Shown one piece after another: positions 1-20,587 of a stretch of DNA of 24,656 nt. Position numbers and translations under genes: made by a program. The notes beneath the pieces are model-generated. The model was given only the letters and a program-made list of their open reading frames with translations, made no database searches and had not been told where the DNA came from. The stretch comes from a virus: positions 1 to 24,656 of the IMG/VR virus record IMGVR_UViG_3300008108_000465. The stretch is one strand, 5' to 3'. Numbering within the stretch: position 1 is the first letter of the stretch; each line of letters starts with the position of its first letter.

Positions 1-210
1 ACCTACGACGAACTACTAAAAGAAAACGCAGACCTAACAGAGCTACTACGAAAAGTCACAAACCAGCTAAACCTAGCATTAGAGGACGTGGCGCGTAACC
101 ATGCGGCTAAGATGCAAGCCAAGCGTGGCGAATCGCATCACAGGGCATTTGAGCGGCTTTGCCCAATGCCGCCCATGCCCGATGCATCAGATCTGGTCAC
201 GTTTAAATGA
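1..210 (+). CDS. C-terminal part of an unknown phage protein (5' truncated by window edge)
   Basis: The frame is open from base 1 and stops at TGA 208-210, leaving 69 residues. The first half is rich in Leu, Glu, Asn and Lys with heptad-like spacing and could be helical or coiled coil. It is followed by a basic stretch (KMQAKRGESHHR) and a Pro/Met-rich tail (CPMPPMPDAS). I do not recognise a family and the start is outside the window. The codons use CTA and ACA heavily, like several small genes of this phage. The gene ends just before a promoter at 212, so it closes an upstream transcription unit or is read through into the next genes. Confidence 0.6.
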   Translation, partial: TYDELLKENADLTELLRKVTNQLNLALEDVARNHAAKMQAKRGESHHRAFERLCPMPPMPDASDLVTFK

Positions 211-211
211 A

Positions 212-239
212 TTGACAATCTAACAGAAAAGAGTAGATT
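212..239 (+). promoter_or_regulatory. Promoter of leader element copy 1
   Basis: A perfect TTGACA (212-217) lies directly after the previous stop codon, 16 nt before TAGATT (234-239), a 4/6 match to a sigma70-type -10. Transcription would start near G246. The same arrangement, TTGACT with 17 nt spacing before an ATTAACG sequence, recurs at 2630-2658 ahead of the second copy of the leader. Confidence 0.5.
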
Positions 240-245
240 AACGCC

Positions 246-386
246 GTCGAAAGACTCCGCTTGAACTCGGATAAAATTAATGCAACTAAAACAAACAACC
301 TCCAATTCCCTTACTAAGCAGTTTTTACAACTGGCATCCGATGCATACGGATGGGTTCAACTTAGTAATGGGATTGGGGGTTTTTT
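246..386 (+). ncRNA. Structured leader RNA, copy 1
   Basis: From the predicted start site the RNA can fold into GTC-GAAA-GAC (246-255, a GNRA-capped hairpin), then CCG/CGG (257-259 with 268-270), then a long bulged stem (about 297-318 with 361-382) enclosing hairpins CAGTT/AACTG (319-333) and CATCCG/CGGATG (335-353). It ends in T6 (381-386). A second copy at 2665-2793 keeps the 5' hairpins and the long stem with different bases, which indicates selection on the fold. I do not recognise the class. It most likely regulates the downstream replication genes in cis, although a released small RNA is possible. Confidence 0.55.
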
Positions 387-399
387 ATTACCAAAATGA
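280..399 (+). CDS. 39-residue leader peptide spanning the terminator-like stem, copy 1
   Basis: ATG 280 to TGA 397-399 encodes 39 residues (MQLKQTTSN... ending GGFLLPK). The entire long hairpin and its T6 tract lie inside this reading frame, and the stop overlaps the ATG of the next gene in an ATGA (396-399). The other leader copy (2699-2806) has a 35-residue ORF with the same relation to its hairpin and the same ATGA junction. The peptides share Q[LF]KQ, N[SP]L[TS], an AY pair and a final G[IF]xGFL block. No clear Shine-Dalgarno precedes it. The peptide itself may be unimportant, and its translation may be what matters for the RNA fold. Chance opening of 39 codons is possible but less likely given the matching copy. 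Confidence 0.5.
   Translation: MQLKQTTSNSLTKQFLQLASDAYGWVQLSNGIGGFLLPK
297..386 (+). terminator. Terminator-like bulged stem, copy 1
   Basis: CCAA-T-T-CCC-TTACTAAG (302-318) pairs with CTTAGTAA-T-GGG-A-TT-GG (361-377), with one bulged T on each strand (306 and 369). The stem can extend outward by about five pairs and is followed by TTTTTT (381-386). Two smaller hairpins fill the loop, making a three-way junction. It lies inside a short ORF, so it may terminate only when the ORF is not translated. Confidence 0.6.
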
Positions 400-566
400 A
401 AAACATTAAAACTAAAAGAGAAGAAGAAATATTAAATAAGCTTAAATCTTGTGAAGATATTTCACAAGGGGATGCAAAATTCGATAGAGAAATTATGGAT
501 GAGTTAATAAAATCCATTAAAAAAGCCATAGATTTATATGAGTCCAAAAAGGAGGCGAGATTTTGA
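396..566 (+). CDS. 56-residue charged helical protein, unknown
   Basis: ATG 396 overlaps the leader-ORF stop and the gene ends at TGA 564-566, overlapping the TTG start of the next gene. The product is very rich in Lys, Glu and Ile (starts MKNIKTKREEEILNKL, ends YESKKEARF) and is probably all helical. I recognise no family. There is no good ribosome-binding site next to the ATG, so translation probably depends on the overlapping leader ORF. Its 3' end carries the strong Shine-Dalgarno used by the replication gene. Base composition is AT-rich like that gene. It could be a small accessory factor of the replication protein it is coupled to. Confidence 0.65.
   Translation: MKNIKTKREEEILNKLKSCEDISQGDAKFDREIMDELIKSIKKAIDLYESKKEARF
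549..555 (+). promoter_or_regulatory. Strong Shine-Dalgarno that fixes a TTG start
   Basis: AAGGAGG sits 7 nt before TTG 563. It is the best Shine-Dalgarno in the window, where most genes have none, and it supports the TTG as the true start of the replication protein. Confidence 0.75.
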
Positions 567-1315
567 AACGTCCATCTTTTCAATTTTACCCATCCGATTG
601 GCTTAGGGACACAGCTCTTAGAACCTGCTCAATAGGGGCTAGGGGATTATGGATTGATATGATTTGTTTTATGCATGAGGGTAATCCATATGGGGTTCTT
701 AAGGTTGGCAATAAGGTTATCCTTCCCGCTAACCTTGCGGTTATGGTAGGGGCAACCTTACTAGAAGTTGAAGGATGGCTTAATGAACTTGAATCATCTC
801 AAGTGTTTGAACGTGGAGATGATGGGGAAATAATGAGCCGACGCATGATAAGGGATGAAAACCTTAGAAACGCAAGGGCTGAAGGTGGAAAACTAGGAGG
901 AAACCCTGCGTTGAAGGTTAAGGATAAGGTTAACTTAAAGGTTAACCAAAAACCAACCCCTTCATCTTCTTCTTCTACTTCATCTACTACTTCCTTATTA
1001 CTAGAGACAGAGAGTTCAGTTAAAAAGAAAAAGACTACAAACAAAGAAAATAGAGCTGTATCACAAAATACCGATTTAATGATTCGTATCGGGTCATGGT
1101 TTAGAAGGCGACCAGACACTTTGTGGACAGTCATGGAAAAAGAAGCACTCGACTCAATCCAAGATTGCTACAAAACAGAAAAGCAAATTGATGGCATGGA
1201 GGCGTATTACACATCAGAAGATCAAGAGGTTAGAAAGTGGCTAAAACGAGATTTAATTACGCTTTTGAATAATTGGACATCTCAATTAGACCGAGCAAGA
1301 AACTTTGATGTATGA
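563..1315 (+). CDS. Phage replication-initiation-like protein (N-terminal winged-helix type)
   Basis: The 250-residue product begins RPSFQFYPSDWLRDTALRTC and continues with the GLWIDMICFMHEG block, typical of phage replication or replisome-organiser proteins that sit beside helicase genes. Residues 1-100 should form the DNA-binding winged-helix region. About 100-150 is a low-complexity linker rich in Lys, Ser and Thr. The C-terminal 90 residues are helical and may bind the helicase. The start is TTG 563, supported by AAGGAGG. Its stop TGA 1313-1315 overlaps the helicase ATG 1312 (ATGA), so the two are translationally coupled. Role inferred: origin recognition and helicase loading. The family is fairly clear from the N-terminus, while the partner role is inference. 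Confidence 0.72.
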   Translation: MKRPSFQFYPSDWLRDTALRTCSIGARGLWIDMICFMHEGNPYGVLKVGNKVILPANLAVMVGATLLEVEGWLNELESSQVFERGDDGEIMSRRMIRDENLRNARAEGGKLGGNPALKVKDKVNLKVNQKPTPSSSSSTSSTTSLLLETESSVKKKKTTNKENRAVSQNTDLMIRIGSWFRRRPDTLWTVMEKEALDSIQDCYKTEKQIDGMEAYYTSEDQEVRKWLKRDLITLLNNWTSQLDRARNFDV

Positions 1316-2628
1316 ACGAAGAATCCCCATATATCAAATCCCTACCGCACTCAGTCGGATGTGAGAAGGCTGTATTGAGCGTTTTAAGTCAGCATAGCGA
1401 GTTTTGGCACGAGTTAGGTGACTTTATACCAGATTGGTATTACCTACCGCAGAATCGCGTGTTACACGTCATTATGGCGAAACAGGTTGAATTGGTCGGT
1501 GCAGTCGAATTAGTCGGGCTTTATCAGTTGCTACTCGATGAGGGTAAGTTAGAAGCTGTTGGCGGCATGGCATACGTTACCGAGGTCTATACCTATCAAC
1601 CCTCGCCTAGTCATTTTGCTAGCCATCTTGAAACGCTACGGATTAAATACGCTTGTCGCCAGGCAATAAAAGCCGCGACTAGTATAGACGAATTAGCGTA
1701 TCAATCCCCAGAAGCAGATGAGTTGGTCAACTTAGCCAACCAAGTCGCTAATGAGATACAGGAGATCGTTACAGGCTCGAAACCAGCACTAGATACTAAG
1801 GCGATAGCTAAAGAATGGTATAACAACTATCAAAAGCTATTATCTGGCGAAAAGATACCAATGGGTATACAAACGGGCGTTATTTCAGCTAGATCATCGG
1901 GTGGTAAATCTACCCTAGCTACCCAGATTATGTCTAACGTAGCATCGCCAGAAACGCCGTGTCTCTATATGTTCTTGGAGGGAACTAAAGAAGCCGCATT
2001 TAGTCGCTGTATTATACAACTATCCAAGCTAGACGGAATGGCTATATCCGACCCGAAAGCATACGCACAGCTTAATAATAGAACGGATGTATCTAAGGAG
2101 GAAACTACCGCTATCGCTACAGCCGTAAAGAAAATCATAGCAGGGGGATTCTATTTTATCCAACCGCCTAGCCGAAAGATTCAAACGATATGTTCAACTA
2201 TTCGGGCTATGGTAAGAAAGAACGGGATCAAGGTAGTTTTTATGGATTATGTCCAGATCGTTCGTAATGCCGAGAAAGGGCAAAGCAAGGAACAGGAAAT
2301 GATGGGTATATCCAATTCGCTCCAGGAACTAGCTACCCAGCTAAATATCTTTATTTGCGTCCTATCCCAAGAAAATAGCGAGGGCGAAACGAAACACGCT
2401 AGGGCTTTGGAAGAGGACTCCGACTGGACTATATCCATTGTTCAAAACCAAGATAAAAGCTCAGAAGATTACAAAAAACATAAGCATATTTTAATCACCA
2501 AAGATCGCCATTGTTCCAATGCAGGGGAAAAATTACCACTAATATTCAATAAAACCAAAGTGAAATTCGTTCGTGGCATTTATGAGGAAACACCCAAACA
2601 AGGACGCAAACCCAAGAAGGACTTTTAA
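1312..2628 (+). CDS. dnaB: Replicative DNA helicase, DnaB-like
   Basis: The 438-residue product has the DnaB layout. Residues 1-150 form the helical N-terminal domain (HSVGCEKAVLSVL; LDEGKLEAVGGMAYV matches the usual DnaB GGxxYL region). From about 165 comes the RecA-like motor: Walker A ARSSGGKST (193-201), Walker B with VVFMDYVQIV (about 308-317), and an LSQEN motif (351-355) where DnaB has LSQLNR. DNA unwinding at the fork is the expected role. It overlaps the preceding initiator gene by 4 nt. The A/S-rich Walker A differs from the common GRPSMGKT but keeps the essential GK[ST]. The stop TAA is directly followed by the promoter of the second leader element. Confidence 0.9.
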   Translation: MNEESPYIKSLPHSVGCEKAVLSVLSQHSEFWHELGDFIPDWYYLPQNRVLHVIMAKQVELVGAVELVGLYQLLLDEGKLEAVGGMAYVTEVYTYQPSPSHFASHLETLRIKYACRQAIKAATSIDELAYQSPEADELVNLANQVANEIQEIVTGSKPALDTKAIAKEWYNNYQKLLSGEKIPMGIQTGVISARSSGGKSTLATQIMSNVASPETPCLYMFLEGTKEAAFSRCIIQLSKLDGMAISDPKAYAQLNNRTDVSKEETTAIATAVKKIIAGGFYFIQPPSRKIQTICSTIRAMVRKNGIKVVFMDYVQIVRNAEKGQSKEQEMMGISNSLQELATQLNIFICVLSQENSEGETKHARALEEDSDWTISIVQNQDKSSEDYKKHKHILITKDRHCSNAGEKLPLIFNKTKVKFVRGIYEETPKQGRKPKKDF

Positions 2629-2629
2629 C

Positions 2630-2658
2630 TTGACTATAAACACGCGATAAGGCAAATT
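2630..2658 (+). promoter_or_regulatory. Promoter of leader element copy 2
   Basis: TTGACT (2630-2635) starts one base after the helicase stop, followed by a 17-nt spacer and CAAATT (2653-2658), a weak -10. The following ATTAACG (2656-2662) aligns with ATTAACG at 237-243 in copy 1. Predicted start is near G2665, the first base of GTTGAAAGAC. Confidence 0.45.
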
Positions 2659-2664
2659 AACGAT

Positions 2665-2793
2665 GTTGAAAGACAACCGCTAGTAACGGTAAATTTGCAT
2701 GATGATTCAATTTAAACAGCCCCGAAATCCCCTATCAAGCCGTGCTTATCATGCCACGGATTTACTACTTGGTAGCGGGTTTCGGGGTTTTTT
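2665..2793 (+). ncRNA. Structured leader RNA, copy 2
   Basis: GTT-GAAA-GAC (2665-2674) and CCG/CGG (2677-2679 with 2687-2689) match the 5' hairpins of copy 1. The 3' part folds into CCCCGAAA/TTTCGGGG (2720-2727 with 2780-2787), CCC/GGG (2729-2731 with 2777-2779), CTATCAAG/CTTGGTAG (2732-2739 with 2768-2775) and CCGTG/CACGG (2740-2759), then T6. One loop hairpin is present instead of two. The inner helix has the same length and the same 3'-side bulge (C2776) as copy 1. Confidence 0.55.
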
Positions 2794-2806
2794 AATATAT
2801 TTATGA
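2699..2806 (+). CDS. 35-residue leader peptide spanning the terminator-like stem, copy 2
   Basis: Two in-frame ATGs (2699, 2702) open a 35-codon frame (MMIQFKQPRNPLSS... ending GFRGFLIYL) that runs through the whole stem and T6 tract and stops at TGA 2804-2806 inside the ATG of the endonuclease gene. Placement and frame relative to the hairpin match the 280-399 ORF: the codons ctt-(a/g)gt-...-ggg-...-ggt-ttt-tta align one for one. No Shine-Dalgarno is evident. Whether the peptide has its own function is unknown. Its likely role is to let a ribosome disrupt the stem. Confidence 0.48.
   Translation: MMIQFKQPRNPLSSRAYHATDLLLGSGFRGFLIYL
2720..2793 (+). terminator. Terminator-like bulged stem, copy 2
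   Basis: An 8-bp GC-rich outer helix, a 3-bp helix and an 8-bp inner helix (one G-U pair) are separated by single bulges and followed by TTTTTT (2788-2793). It is the strongest hairpin in the 2629-2802 gap and is shaped like an intrinsic terminator, yet it lies inside a short ORF and immediately upstream of a gene. Confidence 0.65.
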
Positions 2807-3435
2807 CAAAAGAAGAAAGGAAAGAATACGGCGCAATTTATAGATCTATAAACAAAGATAGAATTAAAGCATATAATTTATCTTATAGATCAAAAAACAA
2901 AGACCAAATAAAGGCGTTAAGACTAAAGGTAAAAGAAACAAAAAAAGCTTACGATTTAGCTTATAGATTAGCTAATTTCAATAAGAAAAAAGCTTACGAT
3001 AAGAATTACCAAGAAAAAAACGCCCAAAAAATAAAAGATTACAAGTATAAATATAGATTACTAAATCCCGATAAAATAAATGCTTATTTCAGAGCATACC
3101 AAAAACAACGTAGTGCAACAGATCCAGTTTTCGCAATGGGCTTAAGATTAAGGTCTAGAATATCAATGGTATTTAAAGTCAACGGGTATAAAAAAAGATC
3201 AGCAACCCAAAAAATGCTAGGATGTTCATTCACTAAATTTAAGGATCATATTGAAAAACAATTCACGGATGGAATGACTTGGGATAATCGCTCTGAGTGG
3301 CACTTAGATCACATAATACCGCTATCTTGCGCTACTACTATTCAGGGCTTAGAAAAGTTATCTCATTACAAAAACATAAGACCCTTATGGGCTAAGGATA
3401 ATTTGGCTAAATCGGATAATTTGGTACTTTTCTGA
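2803..3435 (+). CDS. HNH homing-type endonuclease with Lys/Tyr repeats
   Basis: The product is 210 residues. Residues 10-105 hold four to five imperfect repeats of the form KxKAYxxxYRxxNxDK, a basic array seen in phage HNH proteins and probably binding DNA. The C-terminal nuclease has WHLDHIIPLS (166-175, HxDH with catalytic His170) followed by NIRPLWAKDNLAKSDN (191-206), the usual closing helix of HNH nucleases. It should make DNA breaks and may be mobile. The gene is clearly AT-rich compared with the helicase before it, and it is absent from the core replication logic, which suggests insertion. It starts at ATG 2803, overlapping the leader ORF stop, with no Shine-Dalgarno of its own. Confidence 0.85.
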   Translation: MTKEERKEYGAIYRSINKDRIKAYNLSYRSKNKDQIKALRLKVKETKKAYDLAYRLANFNKKKAYDKNYQEKNAQKIKDYKYKYRLLNPDKINAYFRAYQKQRSATDPVFAMGLRLRSRISMVFKVNGYKKRSATQKMLGCSFTKFKDHIEKQFTDGMTWDNRSEWHLDHIIPLSCATTIQGLEKLSHYKNIRPLWAKDNLAKSDNLVLF

Positions 3436-4859: not shown

Positions 4860-5015
4860 ATGAATCTAACAGTATCTAACAAAACCAACACGCTACAAGC
4901 CTTATTCTATAAGGGATATAGAGCATTAGCACATGGGACACCCCATCCAAACAGATTTCTAACACTTTATTACGCTTGTCGGACTCAGTCCCCCGTGCTT
5001 TCTTTATGCAACTAA
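4860..5015 (+). CDS. Possible 51-residue ORF over a structured region
   Basis: ATG 4860 to TAA 5013-5015 encodes 51 residues (MNLTVSNKTNTLQALFYKGY... ending VLSLCN), rich in Tyr, Arg and Leu. It fills most of the 211-nt gap before the small terminase and runs through a long-range stem (4928-4999) that ends in a T-rich tract, recalling the two leader ORFs, but its sequence is not similar to theirs. There is no Shine-Dalgarno. It could be chance, since codon choice (CGG, CCC, GTG) is not especially like the neighbours. Confidence 0.3.
   Translation: MNLTVSNKTNTLQALFYKGYRALAHGTPHPNRFLTLYYACRTQSPVLSLCN
4928..5005 (+). promoter_or_regulatory. Long-range stem with alternative pairings upstream of terS
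   Basis: AGCAC-AT-GGGAC (4928-4939) can pair with GTCCC-CC-GTGCT (4988-4999), giving 10 pairs around a 2x2 internal loop, followed by the T-rich TTTCTTT. The same bases can instead form local hairpins ATGGG/CCCAT (4933-4937 with 4942-4946) and GGAC/GTCC (4981-4984 with 4988-4991). An upstream hairpin CCTTAT/ATAAGG surrounds TCT at about 4901-4915. It may be a terminator or a switch for packaging genes. Confidence 0.4.
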
Positions 5016-6127: not shown

Positions 6128-7887
6128 ACGAACGAGCGATATCTGAGCTAATAACTGGAGCTAGGCAGGGGTTTAGACCGCCTACGGATCTAAAGCCGTG
6201 GGAATGGGCTGCGTTAAACGTCAAGATTTCAAACAGCGAAAGGTCGACTAGATTTGACCCAGAGCAAACGCCGTGGTGGAAAGCACCTTTAGAATGTGCT
6301 GGAGACTTTGATACTAGGCAGGTAGTTATCGTAGCCCCAACTGGATCTGGTAAATCAACTATGGCAGAGGCTTTGATACCTTATGTAGTTTCGGAGAATC
6401 CTGGTGCTTTTCTCTACGCATCGCAAACGAACGAATCAGCTAAGTTCTGGGGCGAGACTAGGCTTAAACCAGCTTTAATGTCATCGCAACACGTTAAAGA
6501 CCTATTCCCTAAAGACCGACACGCTAGCCGCAAGTTGGAAATTATCTTTCCGCATATGCCTTTGATTCTAGGAGGGGCTAACTTAGCTAACTTCCAAGAG
6601 AAGTCGGTTAGATGGCTTTACGGGGATGAGGTATGGGAATGGCAAGATGAGTTAATCCGCGAGTTCTTAGCTAGGCATCACAACCGCTGGAACAGGAAGG
6701 TTTATCTCGTATCTCAGGGCGGCTATGCTGATTCGGCATTTGATGTTGAATGGCAGAAATCCGATATGGCTTTCTTTAGCTGGAAATGCGATTGCGGAGA
6801 ACAGCAACCGTTTGAATTTGAGGGTATTAAATTCGATGTAGTTACAACTACGGAGGGACAGGTAGATGTAGAGGCTAGTTCTAGAACGTGTCGAATGAAA
6901 TGCCGAGCTTGTGATTTGGAGTATCCCGATGAGGTGCAAACTAGGCGTAAACTAACCGATTCAAATATGACTAATGGTGGTAATGGCTATATTACGACCA
7001 ACCCCGCCCATCACGAATCAGTTAGGGGTTTTCGGGTCGATTCGTTAGCGGTTTGGTGGATTCCTTGGCGGGAAGAGGTTAAAGAGTTCTTAGAGGCTAC
7101 AAAACTAGCCAAGCGTGGCGTTACAGACAGGCTTAGACAATGGACGCAGAAAAGACGTGCTAAGTTCTGGGGTGAGGATATGGCGGATGCTGAGATCATC
7201 GTAGAACGCGGTGGATTTACCAAGTTGGAATACGAGGGCGGAGTTAAGATCGAGAACGAGATACACCGATTCGCTACTATTGACGCTGGAGGAGACCATT
7301 ACTGGATGCTTATTACGGCATGGGCTAAAGGCGGATTCTGTAAGGTCTTATGGGAGGGCTATATTCCTAGTGATAGCGGCAGGGAGGAAAGGATTTTAGA
7401 GATATGCGATAGATACAAAGTTAAACGCTCGTTAACATTCATCGATATTGGATTTGAACAGGATAGGATTTTAGACCTTTGCGTTATGCATGGATGGACG
7501 GGCATAAAAGGCGAGGGTAATAAAAACTTCTTTCTACATACCAACGCACAAGGCAAAACAGTTGAGAAACTTTTCTCTAAAATTAAAAGGGCTAGTTCCA
7601 AGTCGGGCGGCATAGCTAAGTTTATGTTCTTGGCATCAAATCCAGTTAAAGACGTTTTAGCTAGGATGATGAAAAGCGGTAACCAGATTGAATTTCCAGA
7701 TGACTTGTCCAAGCCATTTGAAAACCATATGAGATGTGAGCGGCGGATAGTTGAGAAGAATCCAGAAACTGGGGAGGAGAAATCAAGGTGGATTAGACCT
7801 GGCGGTAAACCCAACCATTTATTTGACTGCCTAGTTTACGCGGTAGCAGCGGCATTAGCGTTTGAAGTAACTGAAACCGATCTCTAA
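6124..7887 (+). CDS. terL: Terminase large subunit, GpA family
   Basis: The product is 587 residues. The ATPase has Walker A APTGSGKST (71-79) and Walker B WLYGDEVW (164-171, Glu169 catalytic). A cysteine cluster CDC (222-224) with CRMKCRACD (256-264) may bind zinc, as in GpA terminases. The nuclease domain follows, with FATIDAGGDHYWMLITAWA near 383-401 and LTFIDIGFEQDR near 439-450 as acidic metal-binding segments. It cuts concatemers and drives DNA into the prohead. GpA enzymes are typical of cos-type packaging, which is an inference here. AAGG directly precedes ATG 6124. The stop TAA is within CTAACAG, just upstream of the head promoter. Confidence 0.93.
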   Translation: MNERAISELITGARQGFRPPTDLKPWEWAALNVKISNSERSTRFDPEQTPWWKAPLECAGDFDTRQVVIVAPTGSGKSTMAEALIPYVVSENPGAFLYASQTNESAKFWGETRLKPALMSSQHVKDLFPKDRHASRKLEIIFPHMPLILGGANLANFQEKSVRWLYGDEVWEWQDELIREFLARHHNRWNRKVYLVSQGGYADSAFDVEWQKSDMAFFSWKCDCGEQQPFEFEGIKFDVVTTTEGQVDVEASSRTCRMKCRACDLEYPDEVQTRRKLTDSNMTNGGNGYITTNPAHHESVRGFRVDSLAVWWIPWREEVKEFLEATKLAKRGVTDRLRQWTQKRRAKFWGEDMADAEIIVERGGFTKLEYEGGVKIENEIHRFATIDAGGDHYWMLITAWAKGGFCKVLWEGYIPSDSGREERILEICDRYKVKRSLTFIDIGFEQDRILDLCVMHGWTGIKGEGNKNFFLHTNAQGKTVEKLFSKIKRASSKSGGIAKFMFLASNPVKDVLARMMKSGNQIEFPDDLSKPFENHMRCERRIVEKNPETGEEKSRWIRPGGKPNHLFDCLVYAVAAALAFEVTETDL

Positions 7888-7896
7888 CAGTTAGGA

Positions 7897-7926
7897 TTGA
7901 CATTGCCATCAATAGAACGCAATGAT
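7897..7926 (+). promoter_or_regulatory. Head-gene promoter giving a probable leaderless mRNA
   Basis: TTGACA (7897-7902) precedes AATGAT (7921-7926, spacing 18; or CAATGA at spacing 17). Only 5-6 nt separate the -10 from ATG 7932, and the first T of the -35 is exactly 35 nt before the A of the ATG. No Shine-Dalgarno can exist on such a transcript. The same distance recurs at 14714 and 20553. Confidence 0.6.
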
Positions 7927-7931
7927 ATGCC

Positions 7932-20468: not shown

Positions 20469-20552
20469 CAAGTCTTGAGGCATGACCCAATGCTTTGGAA
20501 CTTTACCCAGTATCTCTAACAATTTTCCTTTAAATTCTAACAGAATTGCGAT

Positions 20553-20581
20553 TTGACTTTTAGCCGTTAGAAAGCAATGAT
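20553..20581 (+). promoter_or_regulatory. Distal-tail promoter, probable leaderless mRNA
   Basis: TTGACT (20553-20558), a 17-nt spacer, AATGAT (20576-20581), then 6 nt and ATG 20588. It is nearly identical in layout and -10 to the head promoter at 7897, with the -35 again 35 nt before the ATG. CTAACAG (20537-20543) lies 9 nt upstream, as at 4464. No Shine-Dalgarno is possible. Confidence 0.62.
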
Positions 20582-20587
20582 TCCGCT

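Follow-up and report, generated by a model that had tools for sequence, protein, structure and literature searches.

The question raised by this locus is whether two similar leader regions in one phage belong to a new class of structured RNA, as the initial annotation had suspected from paired base changes between them, or to a more familiar kind of regulatory element. Pfam and PHROG matches mark the window (the whole 24,656-nucleotide stretch of DNA that was analysed) as a phage contig, with genes for terminase, capsid and tail. Copy 1 of the leader (237–402) lies 3' of a promoter and 5' of a 56-aa gene, a replisome-organizer-like gene and dnaB, and copy 2 (2656–2809) lies 3' of dnaB and 5' of an HNH nuclease gene. 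The features needed for the argument are the following (L002 and L006 being relatives of this phage):

212–239, plus strand: promoter of copy 1, TTGACA-16-TAGATT (10/12 consensus positions); TTGACAATCTAACAGAAAAGA also occurs in L002, without the leader.
237–271, plus strand: 5' block of copy 1, ATTAACGnnGTYGAAAGAC..CCG..CGG (26/35 identical to L006, 21/35 to copy 2).
280–399, plus strand: leader ORF of copy 1 (39 aa, MQLKQTTSNSLTKQFLQLASDAYGWVQLSNGIGGFLLPK), running through the hairpin, with its stop within the ATGA of the next gene.
298–380, plus strand: terminator-type hairpin of copy 1 (MFE -33.4 kcal/mol, z -4.85; covariation), with an outer stem, a 1x1 mismatch (C310/T369), an 8-bp helix (311–318/361–368) and two inner hairpins.
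381–386, plus strand: T6 tract of copy 1, read from the sequence, ending 9 nt before the downstream ATG.
396–566, plus strand: gene 3' of copy 1 (56 aa, no assigned function).
563–1315, plus strand: replisome-organizer-like gene after the 56-aa gene.
2656–2690, plus strand: 5' block of copy 2 (28/35 identical to L006).
2699–2806, plus strand: leader ORF of copy 2 (35 aa, MMIQFKQPRNPLSSRAYHATDLLLGSGFRGFLIYL), running through the hairpin, with its stop within ATGA.
2718–2789, plus strand: terminator-type hairpin of copy 2 (MFE -37.8 kcal/mol, z -6.71), with a 1x1 mismatch (C2731/C2776), an 8-bp helix (2732–2739/2768–2775) and an inner CCGTG..CACGG hairpin.
2788–2793, plus strand: T6 tract of copy 2, read likewise, ending 9 nt before the HNH ATG.
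2803–3435, plus strand: HNH nuclease gene 3' of copy 2, endonuclease VII-like (phrog_1035, E 1.4e-12).
2629–3428, plus strand: inserted cassette (leader 2 and HNH gene), approximate extent, missing between dnaB and GATTTCTGAAAAAAGAGC in L002 and L006.

Broadly speaking, the element is rare. A scan of 2.9 million viral contigs for the 5' motif (ATTAACGNNGTYGAAAGAC) matched nine contigs, of which L006 holds one true homologue and the others coding coincidences, and a stricter version of the motif retrieved L006 alone. Over 142 nt the L006 leader shares 85% identity with copy 2, and over 169 nt it shares 70% with copy 1; since both window copies match this third one, they are homologous to each other. 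A pattern built on the terminator arms found L006 and L065 among the viral contigs (the match in L065 being a coding coincidence), two scans of genome contigs found no copies, and searches of phage and plasmid collections gave short and weak DNA matches only (E at least 0.6) and no peptide match. When a three-sequence covariance model (R1) was run on all fetched loci, it recovered the three copies only, its matches in L010 and L007 being coincidences in the 5' motif. The check proposed with the initial annotation, a covariance model with many matches ahead of phage early genes, thus failed for lack of homologues. Rfam 15 covariance models yielded no matches up to E 1 over the whole window, and group I intron, HEARO and tRNA elements found no support from Rfam or ARAGORN. 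A further candidate, the stretch CTAAAACAAACAACCT upstream of a helicase-like gene in L003 and L013, was set aside as common in the phage group and with a weaker hairpin of its own (z -2.2).

Each of the two window regions forms a single long hairpin with T6 behind it, as had been noted, and the same hairpin and T6 are present in the third copy. These folds are far more stable than dinucleotide shuffles (MFE and z as listed above; 0/200 shuffles as good); of the 90-nt folds in the window, they are among the most stable. The L006 hairpin has a z of -6.43. The plus strand of the window contains three T-runs of at least six, two of which are the T6 tracts of the leaders. The base changes named initially are correct (T311-A368 vs. 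C2732-G2775, T315-A364 vs. C2736-G2771, and C314-G365 vs. a T2735-G2772 wobble), and the outer stem adds two further compensatory pairs (C303-G376 vs. G2724-C2783, and T306-A373 vs. A2727-T2780); what had been described as a single bulge on the 3' side is a 1x1 mismatch in the MFE structure of either copy. Across the 20 stem pairs of the three-way alignment, 13 are invariant, three differ on one side (wobble), four differ on both sides and none is broken, the stem being 100% paired in the three copies. Only 7 of 500 shuffles matched the observed stem covariation, and sliding the partner by 1–3 columns lowered pairing to 35–62% with no double change. The covariation support from three sequences is good but limited, that is, real but modest. 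The earlier proposals of a selected fold and of a reusable regulatory part both gain from the third homologue, the four compensatory and no broken pairs, and a distance to the next gene that stays at 9 nt; random changes in the stems of further copies, which would have spoken against selection, are not seen in the third copy.

The conserved fold has the makeup of an intrinsic terminator, with a stable hairpin, a G+C-rich base and T6 directly at the base of the stem (a simple terminator scanner misses these hairpins because it allows loops of 3–8 nt only). Compensatory changes between two hairpins are no proof of a new RNA class: selection on an ordinary terminator produces this signal as well. 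With a fold of terminator type, no significant structure in the rest of the leader and no copies found outside one phage lineage, the label of a new RNA class is unjustified, and the element is best described as real, regulatory-looking and rare, with three copies known.

A hairpin of this kind could be a plain terminator or insulator, which would end upstream transcription or limit read-through at an inserted accessory or HNH gene, with an accidental overlapping short ORF and leaky read-through as the source of downstream expression. A plain terminator that throttles the inserted gene is the main rival to the coupled mechanism preferred below, although we consider it rather unlikely. It would be in keeping with the textbook hairpin and T6, with a leader peptide that is not conserved and lacks a Shine-Dalgarno sequence, and with the precedent of T4 mobE and segF (~30% of mobE transcripts stop at such a terminator; PMC2988022). 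It sits less well with a frame that is open and stops in ATGA in 3/3 copies, a loop length that restores the copy 1 frame and the constant 9-nt spacing, and as an insulator the copy 1 terminator would be oddly placed, right after a strong-looking promoter. A general rule that relatives of the HNH gene carry a terminator upstream was rejected, as terminators just upstream of related HNH genes were not enriched (4/45 vs. 11/84 control genes, with a detector for hairpins of up to 60 nt that misses both window hairpins).

Other hairpins near HNH genes were observed among the fetched loci. A strong terminator (GGGGGAGGCAATAGTCTCCCCTTTCTTTTTT) ends ~15 nt before the start of an HNH gene in L029, L030 and L031 (~2665–2715), and a GC hairpin lies between HNH and metallophosphoesterase-like genes in L048 (3342–3395), L049 (1834–1885) and L052 (3344–3397). 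The GC hairpin of L048 and L052–L054 is followed by T7 and enclosed by a short ORF whose end lies in ATGA, and the stems of L048 and L049 differ by paired changes (AGCGCC/GGCGCT vs. AGCGGCC/GGTCGCT). The L048-type hairpin is a parallel case, independent of the window leaders, in which a leader ORF contains a terminator.

The short ORF that had been counted as part of the shared architecture is present in all copies; the correction is that it spans the hairpin and overlaps the next gene. Beginning after the 5' block, it has 39, 35 and 35 codons (copy 1, copy 2 and L006, respectively), crosses both arms and T6, and ends with a TGA within the ATGA of the next gene in 3/3 copies, so that a leader ORF runs across a terminator ahead of a gene every time. 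The T6 tract begins 89–101 nt after the leader ATG, and the distance from its end to the downstream ATG is exactly 9 nt in 3/3 copies, even where the bases differ. In each of the three copies only the coupled frame is open, the remaining two being closed; when letters were shuffled with pairs kept, the frame was open in 8% (copy 1) or 17–18% (copy 2 and L006) of cases, which amounts to a joint chance of ~1–2% if the choice of ATG is ignored. These statistics are in favour of a leader ORF but are suggestive and not proof, as an ATGA start is seen in most genes of this phage in any case. The 5' arm of copy 1 is read in a frame that differs from that of copy 2 and L006, and its different loop length brings the reading back into register by the 3' arm. 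Because of these different frames, the idea that the leader peptides are conserved proteins was rejected; what is kept is an open passage and not the peptide.

No evident Shine-Dalgarno sequence precedes the leader ORFs or the downstream genes, as is usual in this phage (duplex scores for the starts at 396 and 2803 are spurious and come from the G-run of the stem base). Throughout the window, almost no genes have a Shine-Dalgarno sequence, and most starts are ATGA, in many cases overlapping the stop of the gene before; one exception is the gene at 563, which starts with TTG and has a strong AGGAGG.

Judging from the sequence, the conserved fold looks like an attenuator, i.e., an intrinsic-terminator-type hairpin with T6 inside a leader ORF. 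Because the 9-nt gap between T6 and ATG leaves no room for a promoter, the downstream genes would be transcribed only through the hairpin. In pyrBI, a ribosome on the leader ORF suppresses the terminator (PMC5021804), and in E. coli a terminator that lies in the first 100 bp of an ORF keeps its function except where coupling is forced (PMC4824070). Given these precedents and the lack of a promoter between T6 and ATG, we favour a ribosome-coupled attenuator with restart at ATGA, as leader of the gene directly behind it (probability of roughly 0.5), and most likely a pyrBI-like or T4 mobE/segF-like one that is carried with homing-nuclease and accessory genes. The intrinsic terminator within the 35- to 39-codon leader ORF would halt most transcription 9 nt before the start codon, unless a ribosome translating the leader close behind the RNA polymerase blocked the hairpin and allowed read-through; this ribosome would then stop in the ATGA overlap and restart on a downstream gene that has no obvious Shine-Dalgarno sequence. 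Such a scheme would amount to pyrBI-type attenuation plus translational coupling, and would hold the HNH homing-nuclease and accessory genes at a low, coupling-dependent expression while the leader travels with them as a mobile cassette. Termination in vivo, translation of the leader ORF and ribosome-dependent read-through are what we infer from this geometry.

Several points weigh against a coupled attenuator. The leader ORFs lack a Shine-Dalgarno sequence and a conserved peptide, and no pyrBI-like U-rich pause stretch precedes the hairpin, this region being A-rich in both copies (AAAACAAACAACC and TTTAAACAG). The open frames could have arisen by chance (~1–2%) in a phage where ATGA starts are common, the gene behind copy 1 is not of HNH type, and upstream terminators are not enriched at related HNH genes. 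A terminated transcript would in addition end without the leader stop codon, which would be costly if it were heavily translated. A classical trp-type attenuator was rejected, as a search for an alternative helix in which the leader would pair with the 5' arm as antiterminator found none (with the 3' arm left out, leader and 5' arm fold no more stably than shuffles; z -0.49, +0.55; -0.02).

Outside the stem and tail, the best conserved part of the leader is the 5' block (26/35 and 28/35 vs. L006). The GTYGAAAGAC and CCG..CGG parts of the earlier description stand as conserved sequence, but no significant fold was found for them (z -0.56 and +0.81), and the fold of the block is no better than chance in any of the three copies and without covariation. 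It has a candidate role in put- or nut-like antitermination, in which the block (GTYGAAAGAC mini-hairpin and CCG..CGG) would act as a nascent-RNA or protein-recruiting signal and let polymerase pass the T6 terminator, as for HK022 putL and putR ahead of early genes. Its conservation, its location at the probable 5' end and the two copies per phage, which recall putL/putR (PMC9378689), would suit such a role. However, put RNAs are ~70 nt long with two long stems (PMC9378689), vs. 3-bp stems here, the block shows neither fold nor covariation, and Rfam finds nothing; antitermination as the main explanation thus seems improbable to us, and a put-like role of the block possible but unsupported. We give similarly little credence to the idea that block and terminator make up a self-contained expression valve that moves horizontally, and thereby a new class of phage attenuator: some phage or host factor recognising ATTAACGnnGTYGAAAGAC would license read-through, and the homing-nuclease and accessory genes would stay off until a given stage.

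The TTGAC promoter, initially placed inside the shared unit, has to be taken out of it, as the copy 1 promoter also occurs in L002 without the leader. Copy 2 has a -35-like match only, with no scored promoter at the expected site, and L006 has TTCCGG in place of a -35. This bears on the view of the two leaders as paralogous trans-acting small RNAs of ~130–140 nt, from promoter to T6, with the downstream genes as read-through passengers. The distance of ~140 nt from the copy 1 promoter to T6 and the location of conserved block and terminator at the two ends would be as expected of such RNAs; the promoter evidence from copy 2 and L006, the poor conservation of the middle of the RNA between copies (loop 16/42, spacer 13/27) and a downstream gene without a free promoter would not, and we regard small RNAs as a doubtful explanation, even less probable than put-like antitermination. 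Elsewhere in the window, the intergenic regions 7884–7931 and 20537–20587 have in common promoter sequences resembling TTGACw-N16/17-CAATGAT, each a few bases ahead of an ATGAG start.

How the leaders are distributed among close relatives suggests mobility. The sister phage L006 matches the window at 99.9% identity over 9.6 kb downstream and has a different replication module, and its leader precedes a different HNH-type gene, one with an N-terminal HTH domain, so that HNH nucleases are encoded by 2/3 of the genes downstream of leaders, the exception being that of copy 1. (The HNH gene of the window has an HLDHIIPLS..N motif and a weak Pfam HNH match, E 0.048.) In L002 and L006, GATTTCTGAAAAAAGAGC directly follows dnaB, vs. 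~800 bp between the two in the window, and leader 2 with its HNH gene is, by this comparison, an insertion missing from these relatives. Copy 1 starts where L002 and L006 diverge from the window (224–232), and the matches of near-identical phages stop there and restart at 3429. From the insertion polymorphism of cassette 2 and the location of copy 1 at a divergence point, we conclude that the leader moves with accessory genes.

A DNA-level recombination cassette like the PeSLs of T4, with homology for gene swapping as its main role, would account for three copies at module boundaries where near-identical phages differ (224–232; 3429), and for a mosaic in which copy 1 and L006 share flanks, and L006 and copy 2 share the hairpin. 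It would leave the compensatory changes, T6, the 9-nt spacing and the ORF/ATGA geometry unexplained, and of the readings weighed here we consider it the least probable, by itself very unlikely; it is compatible with ribosome-coupled attenuation, and not exclusive of it.

This part of the genome shows other differences between relatives. A comparison of window 98–224 and 3429 onward with L006 and L002 shows that near-identical phages swap the whole replication module (~3.2 kb) at the same two joints, and L002 has another HNH gene, without leader, between organizer and dnaB. The DnaB of the window lacks, at 1861–1920, 17 residues just before Walker A that L002 has, through a 51-bp in-frame deletion with GGCGTT/GGAGTT repeats at the joint; the different DnaB of L006 also has residues at this position, and the window DnaB may be a defective or unusual helicase. 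Further along, two independent contigs (L061 and L064) end within ~12 bp of each other at 4974–4986, just before a small-terminase-like gene, which is possibly a genome end, a packaging site or an assembly break.

Among known systems, the closest in layout is E. coli pyrBI, where the structural gene is directly preceded by an intrinsic terminator that a short leader ORF (pyrL) overlaps (PMC5021804). The phage leaders differ in having no pyrimidine link or U-rich pause region and in a leader stop that overlaps the gene start (ATGA), and their read-through is a prediction, so that they are likened to pyrBI in working and are not members of it. The T4 genes mobE and segF have intrinsic terminators in the 5' coding ends of homing endonuclease genes, and mobE of Aeh1 and segB have hairpins that block the RBS (PMC2988022); these and our leaders have in common an RNA hairpin or terminator whose position would keep the expression of a phage homing nuclease low. 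Here, in contrast, the HNH gene has the terminator ahead of it, in a leader ORF that is separate from the gene, a second copy stands before a gene that is not of HNH type, and there is no RBS to sequester. The PeSL cassettes of T4-like phages, named in PMC4503421, are likewise a repeated promoter and stem-loop at gene-swap boundaries; the stem-loop at a swap boundary is found here too, but it lies between promoter and gene, and the promoter is outside the repeat, its -35 not being kept in L006 or copy 2. HK022 is comparable in having a pair of related RNA elements, putL and putR, close to early promoters, although the two-stem 70-nt structure is absent here and the conserved fold is itself the terminator (PMC9378689). 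The leader probably throttles the next gene, as a neat but rare variation on known attenuators. If so, a homing-nuclease cassette would bring its own ribosome-dependent attenuator and land in an operon without over-expression, the same leader would be reusable before another gene, and the T4 theme of tightly throttled homing nucleases would extend, in a different arrangement, to an unrelated phage group.
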